Origin: an uncultured Acidimicrobiaceae bacterium
GTDB taxonomy: Bacteria; Actinomycetota; Acidimicrobiia; Acidimicrobiales; SZUA-35
Reading direction: 5' to 3'
DNA: 53,788 bases
Assembly: GCA_947259095.1 (NCBI GenBank)
Contig: CAMYLA010000019.1
Span: 1 to 53,788, forward strand
Shown here: one piece after another, positions 1 through 5,324 of the stretch
Layout of the letters: every line of letters begins with the position of its first letter
Numbering within the stretch: position 1 is the stretch's first letter
Position numbers and translations under genes: made by a program
The notes under the pieces: generated by a model
The model's database searches: none
What the model was told of the DNA's origin: nothing
What the model saw: only the letters and a program-made list of their open reading frames with translations

Positions 1-540
1 CCGCCGCCTGGCCCACCAACGACACCGTCGACATCCGCAGCGTGCCGAACCGGTCCGGCAGCTTGGACCCGACGATCCGCATCACCAGGACCAGTAGGCC
101 GTAGACCAGCAGGACCGGGCCGGCAGATCCGAGGCCGAATTCCTCGACATAGAGTGGCATGAACCCGTTCAGCGCGGTGAAGGTGAACAGCCCACCCATC
201 AGGATCAGCCCCGGGGTCACCGCAGCGCGATAGAGAAACGAGCCGGCGCCCCCCGACCGCGACCCGGCGCCCGACGGTGGCCCCGCTCCGGCAGAACTCG
301 GGCGGCGGCCGGGTCGGTTCGACGCCTGGCCGATCGGCTGGGCCGGCCGGCGATCATCGGCCGGGAGGGCGAGAGCCAGCACTGCGGCCACGGCCAGGGC
401 CAGGCCACCGGCAACGAACGCGGCGGCGAACCCGGCCGCACGCTGGACCACCTCGCCCATCAGCGGGCCGAGAGCCATGCCGCCGTAGATGCCCTGCCAC
501 GGGCCCGGCGGGACCGGCCCCCGTCCGGTTTGGAGGTCCG
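1..540 (-). pseudogene. 5'-truncated MFS transporter remnant, continues past the window start
   Basis: Read on the minus strand, the frame encodes a typical MFS half: QGIYGGMALGPLMGE (helix 5 with the GP motif), FVAGGLALAVAAVLALALP (helix 6), a basic Pro-rich central loop, then FLYRAAVTPGLILMGGLFTF and PLYVEEFGLGSAGPVLLVYG, as in drug or metabolite exporters. The first four helices are missing. Upstream the frame becomes non-MFS sequence, reaches a TGA inside the next gene, and has no good start; the ATG at 478 would begin inside helix 5. The quinone oxidoreductase starts divergently at 589, so there is no room for the missing part. I read this as a gene cut by a rearrangement at about 490-560. 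The rest lies outside the window, so its other end cannot be judged. Confidence 0.6.
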
Positions 541-588
541 GGCCGACACGAGTTTCCCGGTCGAAGATGCAGCGGTCATGATGGGGCG

Positions 589-1614
589 ATGGGCCCCATC
601 CAGACCGTCCGTTGTCATGCGATCGACGACGACATCTCGACCATCACCGTCGATACCGTCGACCTCGAACCACCGGCGCCCGGAGAGGTGCAGGTGACGC
701 TGAAGGCCTGCGCCGTCAACTTCCCCGACATCCTCATGATCCAGGGCAAGTACCAGTTCAAGCCTCCGTTGCCGTTCGCCCCCGGCGGTGAGGCGGCGGG
801 CGACGTTGTGACGGTCGGCGAGGGGGTTGACGATTTCCAGCCTGGCGACAGGGTGATCATCGCCAGCCGGTACGGGGGTTTCGCCGAGGCCATCAATGTG
901 CCGGCCGAGGCGGTGCGGCCCCTGCCCGCTTCGATGAGCTACGCCGCCGGGGCGTCGTTCCAGACCGCCTACCTGACGGCCTGGGTGGCCCTGGTGTGCC
1001 GGGGCCATCTTCAACCGGGGGAGACGCTCCTGGTCCACGGCGCCACCGGCGGGGTCGGGATGGCCGCCGTCGACCTCGGCAAGCATCTGGGGGCGACGGT
1101 GATCGCCACCGGTGGCCGGGACGACAAGCTGGCCGTGGTGGCCGAGCGGGGAGCCGACCACGTCATCAACTACACCATGGACGACGGTGGCCTCGGCGGG
1201 TTCCGGGATGAGGTGAAGGCGCTGACCGATGGTCGGGGGGCCGACGTGGTCTACGATCCGGTCGGCGGCGACGTGTTCGATGAGTCGATGCGGTGCGTGA
1301 ACGTCGACGGCCGGTTGCTCACCATCGGTTTCACCAGTGGGCGCTGGCCGCTGGCGGCGGTGAACCTGATCCTCATCAAACAACTCTCGGTTATCGGGGT
1401 CCGGGCCGGCGAGTACGGCAGGGTGTACCCCGATCGGGGGGTGGAGAACCAGCGGGCGATCTACGAGCTGGCCGCAGATGGGATCGTCAGCCCCTACGTC
1501 TGCCAGGCCTTTCCGCTTCCAGATGCGTTGCACGCCCTCCGCATGCTCGAGTCGAGGAACGTCATCGGCAAGTGTGTGGTGACGATGAACGGCTACGAGT
1601 TCGAAGGATCCTGA
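589..1614 (+). CDS. NADPH:quinone oxidoreductase-like MDR family protein
   Basis: 341 aa, the usual length for quinone-oxidoreductase-type medium-chain dehydrogenases. The N-terminal GroES-like half has VNFPDILMIQGKYQ and FAPGGEAAGDV; the Rossmann half has HGATGGVGMAAVDLGKHLGA and then ADVVYDPVGGDVF, the normal order. No cysteine cluster for structural zinc is seen, consistent with the zinc-free QOR branch that reduces quinones or enones with NADPH in the cytoplasm. The ATG at 589 gives the usual short N-terminus; a longer frame upstream reads through low-complexity sequence overlapping the MFS remnant and is not convincing. The gene converges on the selenoprotein-like gene, with a stem-loop joining both stop codons. 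The substrate is unknown. Confidence 0.85.
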   Translation: MGPIQTVRCHAIDDDISTITVDTVDLEPPAPGEVQVTLKACAVNFPDILMIQGKYQFKPPLPFAPGGEAAGDVVTVGEGVDDFQPGDRVIIASRYGGFAEAINVPAEAVRPLPASMSYAAGASFQTAYLTAWVALVCRGHLQPGETLLVHGATGGVGMAAVDLGKHLGATVIATGGRDDKLAVVAERGADHVINYTMDDGGLGGFRDEVKALTDGRGADVVYDPVGGDVFDESMRCVNVDGRLLTIGFTSGRWPLAAVNLILIKQLSVIGVRAGEYGRVYPDRGVENQRAIYELAADGIVSPYVCQAFPLPDALHALRMLESRNVIGKCVVTMNGYEFEGS

Positions 1615-1633
1615 TCGGACCTCGGCCGATCAG
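1611..1633. terminator. Stem-loop joining two convergent stop codons
   Basis: CTGATCGG (1611-1618) and CCGATCAG (1626-1633) form a perfect 8-bp stem with the 7-nt loop ACCTCGG. It contains the TGA of the oxidoreductase and the TGA of the minus-strand Ldi-like gene. There is no T-tract, so an intrinsic bidirectional terminator is plausible but unproven. Confidence 0.5.
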
Positions 1634-3186
1634 TAGCTCCCAGGGGTGAATTCGAGATCCCCGGCCACCAGCGGCACCCGAACCAGCACCGAATCCGGTC
1701 TTACGTCCATGGTCGCCCCGTCGATGCCGGTGAGATACCACAGCCTCGGTTCGACGTTTGCGATGCGGAACGTCGTCCACCTCGCCGGGTCCTCCACCAA
1801 GGGGGCCAGGGTGAGGTGCAGCGCCCCCTTCCGCCATTCGGCCGTGGTGAGGGCCACGGTCGGGAAGTCGACGTCGACCACCTGAGGGCAGGGCTCCAGC
1901 GGTGCGGCAGACAACCGCTCCCACAGGCCGGGCCCGGCCGCCTCGGCTGCGGCCAGGAATGCGTTGAACTGACCGCGGGGGTGTGCCTCGTCGAGCCCCA
2001 TGCCCCAGGTGAACTCGCCGGTCCCACGATCCCAGGTCGGCTGGTAGGAGGCTTCGATGGCGGCCGCCAGCCGCTGGTCCAGCTCGTCCAATTCCCACTC
2101 CCTGGCCAGGATCAGGGCCGATGGATAGCCCCGGCCCGCCCGCAGCGGCAGCGGGGGATCGGCGTCGAGGCCCAGCGACCGGCAGGCGGCATCGAACAGC
2201 CGACGGGCGTCGTCGGCGACCTGGGGTGCGGCGTAGTACGAAGTGGTGATGGCCGAGGACACCGGGAGCCGGTGGTGAACGTCGAGCTGCGGGTCGTAGT
2301 ACAGGGTGGTGGTCTCTGGGCCGGACTCACCGGCCAGATCGAGGTAGTGGTTGCGGGCGTAGCGCCACCACGGCTCGAAGGCCTGGCGGTGGTGGTCGGT
2401 GCCGTGTCGGTTGTCGTGCAGCCTCAGACCGAGGCCCGCTCCGGCCAGTCAAAACGGCCAGATCTTCGTGTTCTCTCAATGACAGCCGATGGGGGCGGCA
2501 AGCCACTGCCGGCGGAGATGTTCTGCGATCTCCGAGTGGGTCCAGGTGAAGGAGTTGTCACCGTCGCGGATCATGTCGAACGGCCGATTCCATCGGTCGT
2601 CGGGATCGATCATCGACCGGATACCCAACAGCACCAGGAAGAACCCTTTGTAGAAGAGCATCCCGTCGGCGGCGATGGGATCCATCTGGACCCCCCACGG
2701 CTCGATCCCGTTTGCCGTCCAGCCGGGGACGTCGTAGTCGCCCCACAGCTCCTCCGGTATCAACAGACGATACCGGTCGGGGTAGTCGCCCCGATCGGGG
2801 TCGTTGCCGAATTGGGTGAGCCAGTCGGCGGCCGACCACCAGCCGGTATGGCGCTCGATCAGCTGGTCGAGGATGGCGACGTAGCGTTCGGTCCAGGCCG
2901 GGGTCCGGTGGGCCATCAGCCCGAGGGCATAGGAGGAGTCGACGAGGTCGAAGCGATGCCAGCTGGCCATCGGCGGGTCGGAGCGGTCGTCCCAGTGAGG
3001 GTGGGGTCGCCCATCACGATTCCAGTTGTCAGCCGTGTTGGCTTTGCGATCGAGGTAGCGAAGCCAACCGAGTGACCGATCCGACAGGTGCACGGGTCGA
3101 ACCATAGCCTGCGCCACCGGCCCGCTCACACCGGGCGGTCGCCCACCCGTTGCCGCAGGCGGCTGCGCTTCGGGGCCGACCGTCAC
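1630..3186 (-). CDS. Predicted double-selenocysteine linalool dehydratase/isomerase (Ldi)-superfamily protein
   Basis: A single frame runs from GTG 3186 to TGA 1632-1630 (about 518 aa), with in-frame TGA codons at 2478-2476 and 2451-2449 (residues 237 and 246). Both sides are coherent Ldi-like sequence. Before the codons: SSYALGLMAHRTP, WWSAADWLTQFG, ADGMLFYKGFF. Across them: GCH-U-ENTKIWPF-U-LAGAGL, then HDNRHGTDHH. After them: FEPWWRYARNHYL, EFTWGMGLDEAHPRGQ. From memory, Castellaniella Ldi has C171-EPDNYFVQ-C180 followed by HGTD, and both cysteines are catalytic; the TGA codons fall on exactly those two positions. A SECIS-like hairpin follows the second TGA. Ldi's catalytic His129 (KGH) appears as Phe here (KGF), so the substrate or reaction may differ. 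No signal peptide is evident, unlike Castellaniella Ldi. GTG 3186 overlaps the CoA-transferase stop (GTGA); ATG 3105 is the alternative start. TGA is the ordinary stop of neighbouring genes, so recoding must be local. A conventional annotation would split this into two genes (3186-2476 and 2262-1630). Confidence 0.85.
2421..2451 (-). promoter_or_regulatory. Candidate bacterial SECIS element for the second UGA
   Basis: Immediately 3' of TGA 2451-2449, stem GCCTC (2435-2431), loop GGTCT (2430-2426) and stem GAGGC (2425-2421) form a perfect hairpin, extendable by a G-T pair and further pairs with a bulge. The loop lies at +19 to +23 after the UGA. In E. coli fdhF, from memory, GGUCU is the SelB-binding loop at the same +19 to +23 spacing. 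It lies inside the coding region, as bacterial SECIS elements do. Confidence 0.8.
2440..2462 (-). promoter_or_regulatory. Possible second SECIS-like hairpin for the first UGA
   Basis: From +14 to +36 after TGA 2478-2476, TCTGGCC can pair with GGCCGGA (one G-T pair), leaving a 9-nt loop GTTTTGACT. The loop starts with G about 21 nt after the UGA, which fits published rules for bacterial SECIS elements (loop G, 16-37 nt spacing). It lacks the canonical GGT. The second UGA lies in its loop, and its 3' arm lies between that UGA and the better SECIS. Weaker than the downstream hairpin. Confidence 0.4.
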
Positions 3187-5324
3187 CGAGTCGAATCGGC
3201 CGCGCTCTCGGCCGCCGTCTCGGGCCGGATCTCCCCTGCGATCTCGGCGCTGATCTCATCGCTGTGAGCGCCGAGATCGGGGGCCGGTCCCGGGTGGGGG
3301 CCGGCGCCGCCCACCAGCTGGCCGAACACCAGCAGTGGTCCGAACCGGGTGGAATCCTGGTGGGTCGACAGGCCGTTGGCTGCGGCCAGGGGGGAAGCGG
3401 TCAGGCCGTGGGTCTCGACGTCGGTCGACAGTTTGCCGTCGCGCCAAAGCAACCTCCCCCCGGTCTCCTCCCAGGTGTTGTCGGCCGATCCCGGGTGGTC
3501 GAAGCCACCGAGCTCGGCTTGCGGCCGGCCGTGGTGGCGGGTGTACTCCGCGGCCTGGGCGGCCATGGTGCTCTGGGCCAGCGAGGTGAGCACGTGCTGG
3601 CCGCCGCCGCCACCCTGCTCGCTCGGGCGTCCCCGTTGCCACCAGCCGGCCACCACGCCGAACGCACCGATCAGCGGGGTCATCACGTCGTGCACCGGCA
3701 CGGTGAGGAACACCGGCTCGAACCCCTCACCGCCTTCGCCGAGACCGCCCTGGGCCGCCATGAGACCGCCAATGGCCTGGACCAGGGGATCGAAAGCCGG
3801 TCGTTCGGCCATCGATTCATCGAGGCCGTACCCCGGCGAGGAGAGGAACACCAGGTCGGGGTTGACGGCCTGGAGGGTCGGGCGGTCGCAGCCGAGGCGT
3901 TCGCTGACCCCCGGTCGGAAGTTCTCGACCACCGCGTCGGCGGTGGCCACCAGGCGGTGGAGGGCGAGCCGACCTTCCTCGGTCTGCAGGTCGAGGATGG
4001 TGCTCCGCTTCGCCTGGTTCCAGGACTGGAACATCGGGCCGATGGCCCGAAACGGATCGCCGGTCGGCGGTTCGACCTTGATCACGTCGGCACCCAGCAT
4101 GCCGAGATGGCGGCTGACCACCGGTCCCGCGATGAACGAAGCCAGGTCGATGACCCGCAGGCCGGCCAGGGGCCGCTCCGCAGACGCCGATTCGCCGGTG
4201 CCGGACCCGCTCGGGTTCCGGGGCGGCGGCGGTGCCTCATCGACCGCCCGCGACCACTCGGCCAGCACCTCGTCGGTGTGTTGCCCGAGCAGGGGAGCGG
4301 GGCGGACCACGGCCCCCGGGGCGGCGGCCACGGTGACGGGAAGACCCATCATCGCAACCTCGCCCAACGCCGGGTGTTCCACCGTCACGTCCATGTTGTT
4401 GGCCGCAACCACCGAGGTCCGGAGGAACTCGTCCCTGGTCAGCACCGGTTGGGCCGGAACATCGGCCTCGGCCAGCAATTCCAACCACTCGTGGCGGGGG
4501 CGGGTGGCGAACACCTCGTCGAGAATGGGGGTGATCCGTTCGATCGCCTCGTCCAACAGCAAACCCCACGGCGGGTTGGCGAGCTGCGGGTCGTCGATCA
4601 GTTCCGGGTGGCCGATCACGTCAAGCATCCGGGTGTAGAACCGCTGGGTGCCACAGGCCAGGAAGAACCACTTGCCGTCGCCGGCTTCGATCAGCCGGTA
4701 GCAGGCCACTCGGCCCTTTGAGCCCAGCGCCGAGGCGACGGCTCTCGGCTCGTCATCACCGTCGAGTCTGAACTCACCGAGCTGCATTGCCGCCGCACCG
4801 GCGACCTGTGACACCTCGTAGGTGGGCGCAACCCCCCGCTCCCGGCGGACAAGCAAGCCGGTGGCAGCGGCCAATGCGGCGAGGACCCCCGTGCCGTATG
4901 CGGCAACCGGGACCACAACGTCGACCGGTACCTCCCCGTAGGATTGCTGATTCCAGGCGATCCCGGTGGCAGCATGGAGCAGGGTTCGGCTGACCGGATC
5001 GTGCACCTTCGGGCCGTGCTCGCCCCACGGCGGCATGGTGATGATCACCGCCGCCGGGTTGAGGCCGCGGATGTCTGCGGCCCGCCCCGGTTGATCGACG
5101 AAGACGACATCGGCGGCGGGGATCAACCGCTGAGGATCGGCGACCACCGAACGCTTGTTGCGATTCACGGTCTGGAAGCCCGGATCGGCTCGGTAAGGGT
5201 CGCCGGCGGCCGCTTCGATCTTGACCACGTCGGCCCCCTGGTCGGCCAGGAACATGGCGGCATACGGGGCGGCGATGCCGGTGCCGAGATCGAGAACCCG
5301 GATCCCCTCGAACGGACCGCTCAA
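3183..5324 (-). CDS. Two-domain family III (CaiB/BaiF) CoA-transferase
   Basis: 713 aa, about twice a normal CaiB/BaiF subunit (about 400 aa). Domain 1 starts GIRVLDLGTGIAAPYAAMFLADQGADVVKIE; domain 2, near residue 385, restarts with LAGLRVIDLASFIAGPVVSRHLGMLGADVIKVE and contains VENFRPGVSERLG and AFDPLVQAIGGLM. The C-terminal 70 residues are Gly/Ala-rich and divergent. Family members move CoA from a donor thioester to a carboxylic acid; the fusion supplies both halves of the interlocked dimer. Asp in VPVHDVMTP (domain 2) is in the region of the catalytic Asp, while domain 1 is less clear. The start is TTG 5324 with GGAGGGA upstream. Its stop overlaps the GTG start of the Ldi-like selenoprotein, so the two are probably translationally coupled and act in one pathway. 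Confidence 0.85.
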   Translation of the reverse strand: MSGPFEGIRVLDLGTGIAAPYAAMFLADQGADVVKIEAAAGDPYRADPGFQTVNRNKRSVVADPQRLIPAADVVFVDQPGRAADIRGLNPAAVIITMPPWGEHGPKVHDPVSRTLLHAATGIAWNQQSYGEVPVDVVVPVAAYGTGVLAALAAATGLLVRRERGVAPTYEVSQVAGAAAMQLGEFRLDGDDEPRAVASALGSKGRVACYRLIEAGDGKWFFLACGTQRFYTRMLDVIGHPELIDDPQLANPPWGLLLDEAIERITPILDEVFATRPRHEWLELLAEADVPAQPVLTRDEFLRTSVVAANNMDVTVEHPALGEVAMMGLPVTVAAAPGAVVRPAPLLGQHTDEVLAEWSRAVDEAPPPPRNPSGSGTGESASAERPLAGLRVIDLASFIAGPVVSRHLGMLGADVIKVEPPTGDPFRAIGPMFQSWNQAKRSTILDLQTEEGRLALHRLVATADAVVENFRPGVSERLGCDRPTLQAVNPDLVFLSSPGYGLDESMAERPAFDPLVQAIGGLMAAQGGLGEGGEGFEPVFLTVPVHDVMTPLIGAFGVVAGWWQRGRPSEQGGGGGQHVLTSLAQSTMAAQAAEYTRHHGRPQAELGGFDHPGSADNTWEETGGRLLWRDGKLSTDVETHGLTASPLAAANGLSTHQDSTRFGPLLVFGQLVGGAGPHPGPAPDLGAHSDEISAEIAGEIRPETAAESAADSTR

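Follow-up and report, generated by a model that had tools for sequence, protein, structure and literature searches.

The window analysed here is a stretch of 53,788 nucleotides, contig CAMYLA010000019.1, from an uncultured Acidimicrobiaceae bacterium (GenBank assembly GCA_947259095.1). It contains a gene that likely encodes an enzyme of the linalool dehydratase/isomerase (Ldi) superfamily with selenocysteine (Sec, U) at both positions of the catalytic cysteines, a selenocysteine insertion sequence (SECIS) hairpin of its own behind each of two in-frame UGA codons, and a proposed non-redox chemistry. Within this explanation, recoding of both UGA codons to Sec is judged close to certain on the sequence evidence, a separate SECIS for each of them appears very likely, and the chances of a non-redox chemistry are about even. 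An earlier interpretation made from the letters of the window, in which Sec replaces both catalytic cysteines (hereafter the sequence-only reading), is supported by the comparisons described below. The gene would probably represent a new selenoprotein family in a fold that is not of the thioredoxin type and is probably non-redox.

The reading frame and its relatives

With TGA read as U, the gene lies on the minus strand and comprises 518 codons followed by a terminal TGA (Table 1). Exactly two internal stops are present, both TGA, at residues 237 and 246, and the translation around them is ...GCH-U-ENTKIWPF-U-LAGAG...NRHGTD. In the mechanical list of open reading frames (ORFs), the gene appears as two pieces, 2476-3186 (236 aa) and 1630-2262 (210 aa). 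The sequence-only reading had described the frame of about 518 codons correctly, without giving its strand, and had noted Ldi-like sequence before, between and after the TGA codons; the Pfam Ldi family (PF18566) indeed matches the read-through protein across both sites (residues 167-336, 51.7 bits with a cut-off of 26.1). No tandem repeats were found between 1500 and 3300. The real start probably lies at or after residue 28 (ATG 3105-3103) rather than at the GTG at 3186, because the predicted local distance difference test score (pLDDT) is below 50 for residues 1-20 and 22-25 and because the frame of four relatives (L020, L034, L075 and L111) is interrupted by a stop at aligned positions 24-28.

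NCBIfam gave no match for the window protein, and a single-sequence search of the PDB returned nothing relevant; Ldi was then found by a profile search. A profile of 56 family members places both thiol columns on two cysteines of the solved Ldi chains, ...AGIVCEPDNYFVQC..., in agreement with the earlier assignment of the TGA codons to the two catalytic cysteines of Ldi. These are numbered 171 and 180 in the PDB titles, and 170 and 179 in PMC6600392, according to which both must be reduced and the Cys-to-Ser or Cys-to-Ala forms are inactive. The predicted fold passes as an Ldi-like (alpha/alpha)6 barrel.

Relatives were collected in two scans, and the DNA itself was used to determine which codon stands at each of the two sites. 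A scan of genome contigs with six peptide patterns retained 80 of 175 loci, and a second scan, over 298 genomes from the window's order (E <= 1e-30), detected the gene in 25 genomes; with completeness of 90% or more and contamination of 5% or less required, the count is 13 of 226. Once eight duplicate segments and five loci not covering both sites were dropped, 93 genes remained, including that of the window: 15 U/U, 55 C/U, 21 C/C and 2 S/H (residues at sites 1 and 2). These numbers refer to related genes and should not be taken as independent events, and they favour C/U and C/C over U/U because one of the six contig-scan patterns has Cys at site 1. The sequence-only reading had looked to homologues with C/C, U/C and U/U at the same columns as proof of the site; C/C, C/U and U/U are all present, but the form U/C was seen in none of the 93 genes.

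The 25 genomes of the order scan divide into nine U/U, spanning six genus codes, seven C/U, two C/C, two S/H and five partial. The U/U genes come from records titled Acidimicrobiia or groups within it (one Actinomycetes) and from genomes of the window's own order, and C/U genes are also found in records titled Gammaproteobacteria, Alphaproteobacteria, Chloroflexi and Entotheonella. Among the best 120 of 574 database proteins, 115 are C/C, two are S/H and one each is R/C, C/Q and G/R. The lack of a UGA form among these 120 is probably due to the cutting of UGA-bearing genes in such databases; since ordinary gene calls split genes at UGA, the Sec forms of the family are probably recorded as fragments.

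The recurrence of the two codons decides against a decaying pseudogene or an assembly error, in which the TGA codons would be nonsense mutations or sequencing errors. Such an explanation could appeal to the origin of the data in a metagenome-assembled genome (MAG) and to the database relatives in which decay might have left R, G, Q, S or H at the two sites. However, both codons recur in 15 assemblies (15 non-duplicate genes, counting that of the window), and a further 55 genes have only the second. This confirms the earlier argument that their placement is beyond chance, and pseudogene and sequencing error were accordingly rejected as vanishingly improbable. In addition, the median ratio of nonsynonymous to synonymous substitution rates (Ka/Ks) over 28 pairs of eight U/U genes is 0.09 upstream of UGA1 and 0.25 downstream of UGA2, which indicates protein-level constraint on the sequence past the stops, and the hairpin behind UGA2 shows compensated changes (vide infra). 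Hardly any weight is left for a genome-wide reassignment of UGA to Trp or Gly in the lineage either, which would explain the in-frame TGA and nothing further: the window gene and its upstream neighbour both end in TGA, most TGA-free relatives have Cys as the aligned residue and none of those seen has Trp, and a tRNA-Sec with anticodon tca is present. Reassignment was rejected on the basis of the Cys homologues and the TGA stops.

Four side observations concern the relatives. An S/H branch, with Ser and His at the catalytic columns (GPHSENTKVWPEH), comprises L113 and L114 (genomes G090 and G202) and database proteins P0025 and P0085, and perhaps represents a functional switch or an inactive form. 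The database proteins P0004, P0005 and P0045 are 60-69% identical and have C/Q, R/C and G/R at the catalytic sites. These pairs may have arisen from UGA codons that decayed; a single step would turn TGA into CGA (Arg) or GGA (Gly). Three alphaproteobacterial MAGs (DEBC01, JAGWAU01 and OY282368.1) have three or four C/U copies each (among them loci L063, L064, L069, L070, L072 and L087, and L060, L071 and L076). Plasmid records gave two matches, at 42% identity, from Streptomyces.

A candidate SECIS behind each UGA

A 5-bp stem with a GGUCU loop 18 nt after UGA2 (SECIS2) is present in all 70 genes with TGA at site 2. The combination of loop and stem is absent from all 21 C/C genes, two of which have the loop alone, and from both S/H genes. 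Resampling of synonymous codons (59 of the 61 such genes in the first 82 rows) gives an expected frequency of 0.6-1% per gene. The stem also covaries, with CG, UA and GC at one pair and 23 cells changed on both sides, and none of 500 shuffles reaches this number of double changes or the covariation score; slid registers of the element pair in 17-58% of cells. At the SECIS2 position of the C/C genes, 48% of cells pair and some shuffle measures are low too (4 and 31 of 500), so that relatedness alone can act on these measures. SECIS2 was seen by eye in the lowest-energy fold of six of the eight U/U sequences folded (of 15), and that of the window appears in a folded stretch of 52 nt and is absent from stretches of 71 and 44 nt.

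For UGA1, the candidate element (SECIS1) is a 7-bp stem, UCUGGCC/GGCYGGA, which is possible in all 15 U/U genes (one with U-G at the second pair), with 8.8% per gene expected from synonymous codons. Its 3' arm is set by codon choice, with CTG for Leu in 15 of 15 genes (35% elsewhere) and GGA for Gly in 15 of 15 (12% elsewhere). Outside the U/U genes, the stem is found in two of the 55 C/U genes (L017 and L018) and in one S/H gene (L114). It was read by eye in the lowest-energy fold of five of the same eight sequences. Both loops, 18 nt from UGA2 and 20 nt from UGA1, respect the range of 16-37 nt between UGA and apical loop that PMC10778597 gives; by the same rule SECIS2, with its loop 45 nt from UGA1, is too far away to serve the first codon.

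This spacing also bears on a narrower explanation, in which only UGA2 is efficiently decoded as Sec and UGA1 is a leaky stop, or is weakly served by SECIS2, so that full-length protein is scarce. The covariation of SECIS2, far stronger than that of SECIS1, would fit this account, as would the predominance of the C/U form (55 of 93). It is nevertheless improbable given the retention of UGA1 in 15 genes and across the six genus codes, the purifying selection that persists downstream, the formation of the SECIS1 stem far above expectation, and the position of the SECIS2 loop outside the stated range from UGA1.

Several results count against a pair of dedicated hairpins. SECIS1 shows no compensatory change, five of its seven pairs being invariant and two varying on one side, its loop lacks GGUCU, and the 15 U/U genes are of common ancestry. 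Its seven pairs can also form in L114, an S/H gene. The folding energies of the eight U/U stretches are mostly unremarkable when compared with shuffles (z -2.2 to +0.2). For SECIS2, two of the five covariation measures are not outstanding: 44 of 500 shuffles do as well in the number of pairs changed, and 356 in the number of pair types. Rfam gave no SECIS match over 2300-2600.

Selenocysteine machinery and the order of change

The sequence-only reading had proposed a check for selA, selB, selC and selD, and all four are present in the window genome. The tRNA-Sec is on contig C99, selA and selB are adjacent on contig C168, and two selD genes (L100 and L101, on contigs C27 and C83 of G000) each have an in-frame TGA, with the motif GAGUACK in one; one of the two copies may be a contaminant. 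In 50 genomes drawn from the 80 loci, SelB was over the cut-off in 7 of 7 U/U, 19 of 22 C/U and 13 of 21 C/C genomes, and SelA in 7 of 7, 20 of 22 and 15 of 21. With the window and order-scan genomes added, SelB was found in all 15 U/U genomes, and tRNA-Sec in the genomes chosen for its search was present in 15 of 15 U/U, 3 of 5 C/U, 0 of 2 C/C and 2 of 2 S/H. The telling part of this evidence is the distribution of the eight of 50 genomes in which SelA and SelB are both under the cut-off, six of which hold C/C genes and two of which are the C/U MAGs of L030 and L036. Contamination as the source of the machinery was considered separately and judged unlikely, as the window's own SelB is closest to that of the genomes with the nearest C/U or U/U genes (among 13 other genomes, 74% identity over 346 aa to G001, 70% to G024 and 66% to G003).

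In a tree of 82 rows with both sites masked, all C/U and U/U genes and the C/C gene L028 fall on one branch, apart from the other 20 C/C genes (Shimodaira-Hasegawa-like approximate likelihood ratio test, 98). Over 93 rows, the fewest changes are four at site 1 and three at site 2. A well-supported group of 19 contains the U/U genes, L017 and L018 (both C/U) and the S/H pair; the drawn trees nest these last four inside the U/U genes, an arrangement that the weak inner branches do not force. The most economical order would be C/C to C/U to U/U, followed by losses. The tree being unrooted, the support for this direction comes from the distant C/C homologues and from Ldi itself. L028 (Candidatus Microthrix parvicella, G012) and L115 (G333) are C/C forms inside the Sec clade from genomes without SelB over the cut-off and without tRNA-Sec, as expected of reversions after loss of Sec; the absences carry less weight for L115, whose genome is 77% complete. 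L028 has kept GGUCU with a broken stem, perhaps as a fossil SECIS.

The comparison of genes and genomes also yields points that speak against recoding at both sites or against its history as outlined. Non-thiol residues occupy the columns in 2 of the 93 genes (S/H) and in five of the best 120 database proteins (S/H, R/C, C/Q or G/R), and in a distant partial locus at 32% identity, L127, column 246 holds Ala and column 237 is a gap. Unrelated residues at both columns had been put forward as a refutation of the sequence-only reading; they occur in these few relatives and not in most, 115 of the 120 being C/C. The S/H genomes do have tRNA-Sec and SelB. No SelA, SelB or tRNA-Sec was found for two C/U loci with intact SECIS2, L030 and L036 (G014 and G020), which come from MAGs; either these bins are incomplete or they present a puzzle. 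SelB in the U/U genomes is weak evidence alone, because SelB is very common in the order (nine of nine genomes from the same genus or family that lack the gene have it) and occurs in the 13 C/C genomes mentioned above. The window MAG has 7.1% contamination, and its selAB and tRNA-Sec are on contigs other than that of the gene. The loop of L028 need not be a relic, because a distant C/C gene that falls outside the Sec clade, L085, has a GGUCU loop but no stem as well. Finally, in the C/U genes the ratio of nonsynonymous to synonymous polymorphism (pN/pS) is 0.31 before and 0.59 after UGA2, at large distances and with repeated changes uncorrected.

Possible function and comparison with known systems

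In the proposed mechanism, the hairpin behind each UGA likely recruits SelB with Sec-tRNA. The ribosome would decode UGA1 by means of SECIS1, unwind this hairpin, and then decode UGA2 by means of the fdhF-like SECIS2. The finished protein would fold as the barrel described above with a C-terminal beta domain, and two selenols would flank the substrate pocket as acid/base or nucleophile. The substrate would be alkenol-like (terpenoid or lipid-like), and the reaction a non-redox isomerisation or addition/elimination. A selenol, with its lower pKa and its greater strength as a nucleophile, would offset the Ldi groups that are absent here. In its most specific form, the proposal is a selenium-dependent hydro-lyase or isomerase with acid/base or covalent (seleno-terpenoid) catalysis, in which first one and then both thiols were replaced and the location of UGA2 in the SECIS1 loop couples the recoding events in order; we offer this version tentatively, at somewhat less than even chances.

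Two differences from Ldi indicate that the reaction may not be that of Ldi, and so tell against the proposal. The histidine of the Ldi stretch YKGH (His129) is replaced by Phe: YKGH aligns with FKGF in the family profile, the window has YKGF, and Phe is the consensus at this column in the 56-row alignment of mostly Cys forms, as the sequence-only reading had stated for the window. The window protein also has no Cys before residue 235 and hence none for a capping disulfide of the Ldi type, Cys48-Cys101 (PMC6600392). Ldi chemistry need not persist under these circumstances, and a double selenoprotein could instead have turned the barrel into an oxidoreductase or a peroxide-reducing enzyme, with its two selenols joined in a diselenide (a selenylsulfide in the C/U forms), as happens in many selenoproteins. 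PMC13188914 regards most uncharacterised prokaryotic selenoproteins as likely redox proteins. We consider a redox enzyme rather unlikely, and less so than the other alternatives; the non-redox proposal is preferred.

The gene neighbourhood is consistent with catabolism and names no substrate. No conserved operon was detected across the ORFs around 12 loci, or in the Pfam results for 30 ORFs, of which 10 belong to the window and 20 to other loci. The GTG at 3186 overlaps the stop codon of the upstream CoA-transferase gene, a relative of which was seen near only two other loci. Loosely recurring neighbours include CoA-transferase III (the window and L017), luciferase-like monooxygenase (L023, L024 and L109), molybdenum hydroxylase-type proteins (L021 and L023) and zinc dehydrogenases (the window and L111).

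Table 1. Positions in the window of the predicted gene, its recoding signals and the adjacent genes
Feature	Position	Strand	Remarks
Double-Sec Ldi-superfamily gene (predicted)	1630..3186	-	518 codons + stop
UGA1, codon 237, column of Ldi catalytic Cys170/171	2476..2478	-	Reading frame and profile alignment
UGA2, codon 246, column of Ldi catalytic Cys179/180	2449..2451	-	Reading frame and profile alignment
SECIS1 candidate for UGA1, UCUGGCC/GGCCGGA, 7-bp stem, 9-nt loop containing UGA2	2440..2462	-	Loop 20 nt after UGA1
SECIS2 for UGA2 (predicted), GCCUC-GGUCU-GAGGC	2421..2435 (loop 2426-2430)	-	Loop 18 nt after UGA2
CoA-transferase family III (CaiB/BaiF type), upstream gene	3183..5324	-	4-nt overlap
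Zinc-binding alcohol dehydrogenase family, convergent downstream gene	277..1614	+	ORF list, Pfam

If confirmed, the selenoproteome would gain an enzyme class that is neither thioredoxin-like nor, by its fold, obviously redox, and selenol acid/base or covalent catalysis on alkenes would require a widening of the usual account in which Sec is kept for redox chemistry or protection from oxidation. The C/C, C/U and U/U series and the likely reversions offer natural variants with which to measure the value of each selenium in one scaffold, and the overlapping SECIS layout lends itself to testing how two UGAs spaced by 27 nt are decoded by SelB.

The earlier statement that no selenoprotein is known in this family held within the literature covered. 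No report of selenium or selenocysteine in Ldi or PF18566 proteins was found in openly readable full text, and none of the 119 prokaryotic selenoprotein families and subfamilies in Table 1 of PMC13188914 is Ldi or PF18566. The terms linalool and dehydratase do not occur in the text available from PMC12013277 and PMC9312934, and a literature search for selenoproteins of Acidimicrobi- taxa returned only papers that are off-topic by their titles and the beginnings of their abstracts. Among the matches listed for selenoproteins together with linalool, all have unrelated titles. Two Sec residues in one bacterial protein are not new, since the table in PMC13188914 lists other such families, including UxxU Prx-like proteins, TsoB (UxxxxU), MbdU and selenobacteriocin. 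These likewise have two Sec per chain, some only a few residues apart, but many of the multi-Sec families in the table are of thioredoxin- or peroxiredoxin-like, metal-binding or methyltransferase types, unlike Ldi.

Compared with the Ldi of Castellaniella defragrans (PDB 5g1u, 5i3t and 5hlr; PF18566), the window protein has the same two catalytic columns, with Sec predicted for both cysteines. Along with the Phe and the missing N-terminal Cys discussed above, it differs in an additional C-terminal beta domain (about residues 435-515 of the predicted structure, outside the Ldi coverage), and the identity in the structural alignment is 17-18%. The closest parallel for SECIS2 is the SECIS of Escherichia coli fdhF, which has an identical GGUCU loop that likewise starts 18 nt after the UGA. 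That element belongs to a different enzyme, formate dehydrogenase H, and has a different stem sequence, and the U/U genes add to this arrangement an upstream hairpin with UGA2 in its loop.
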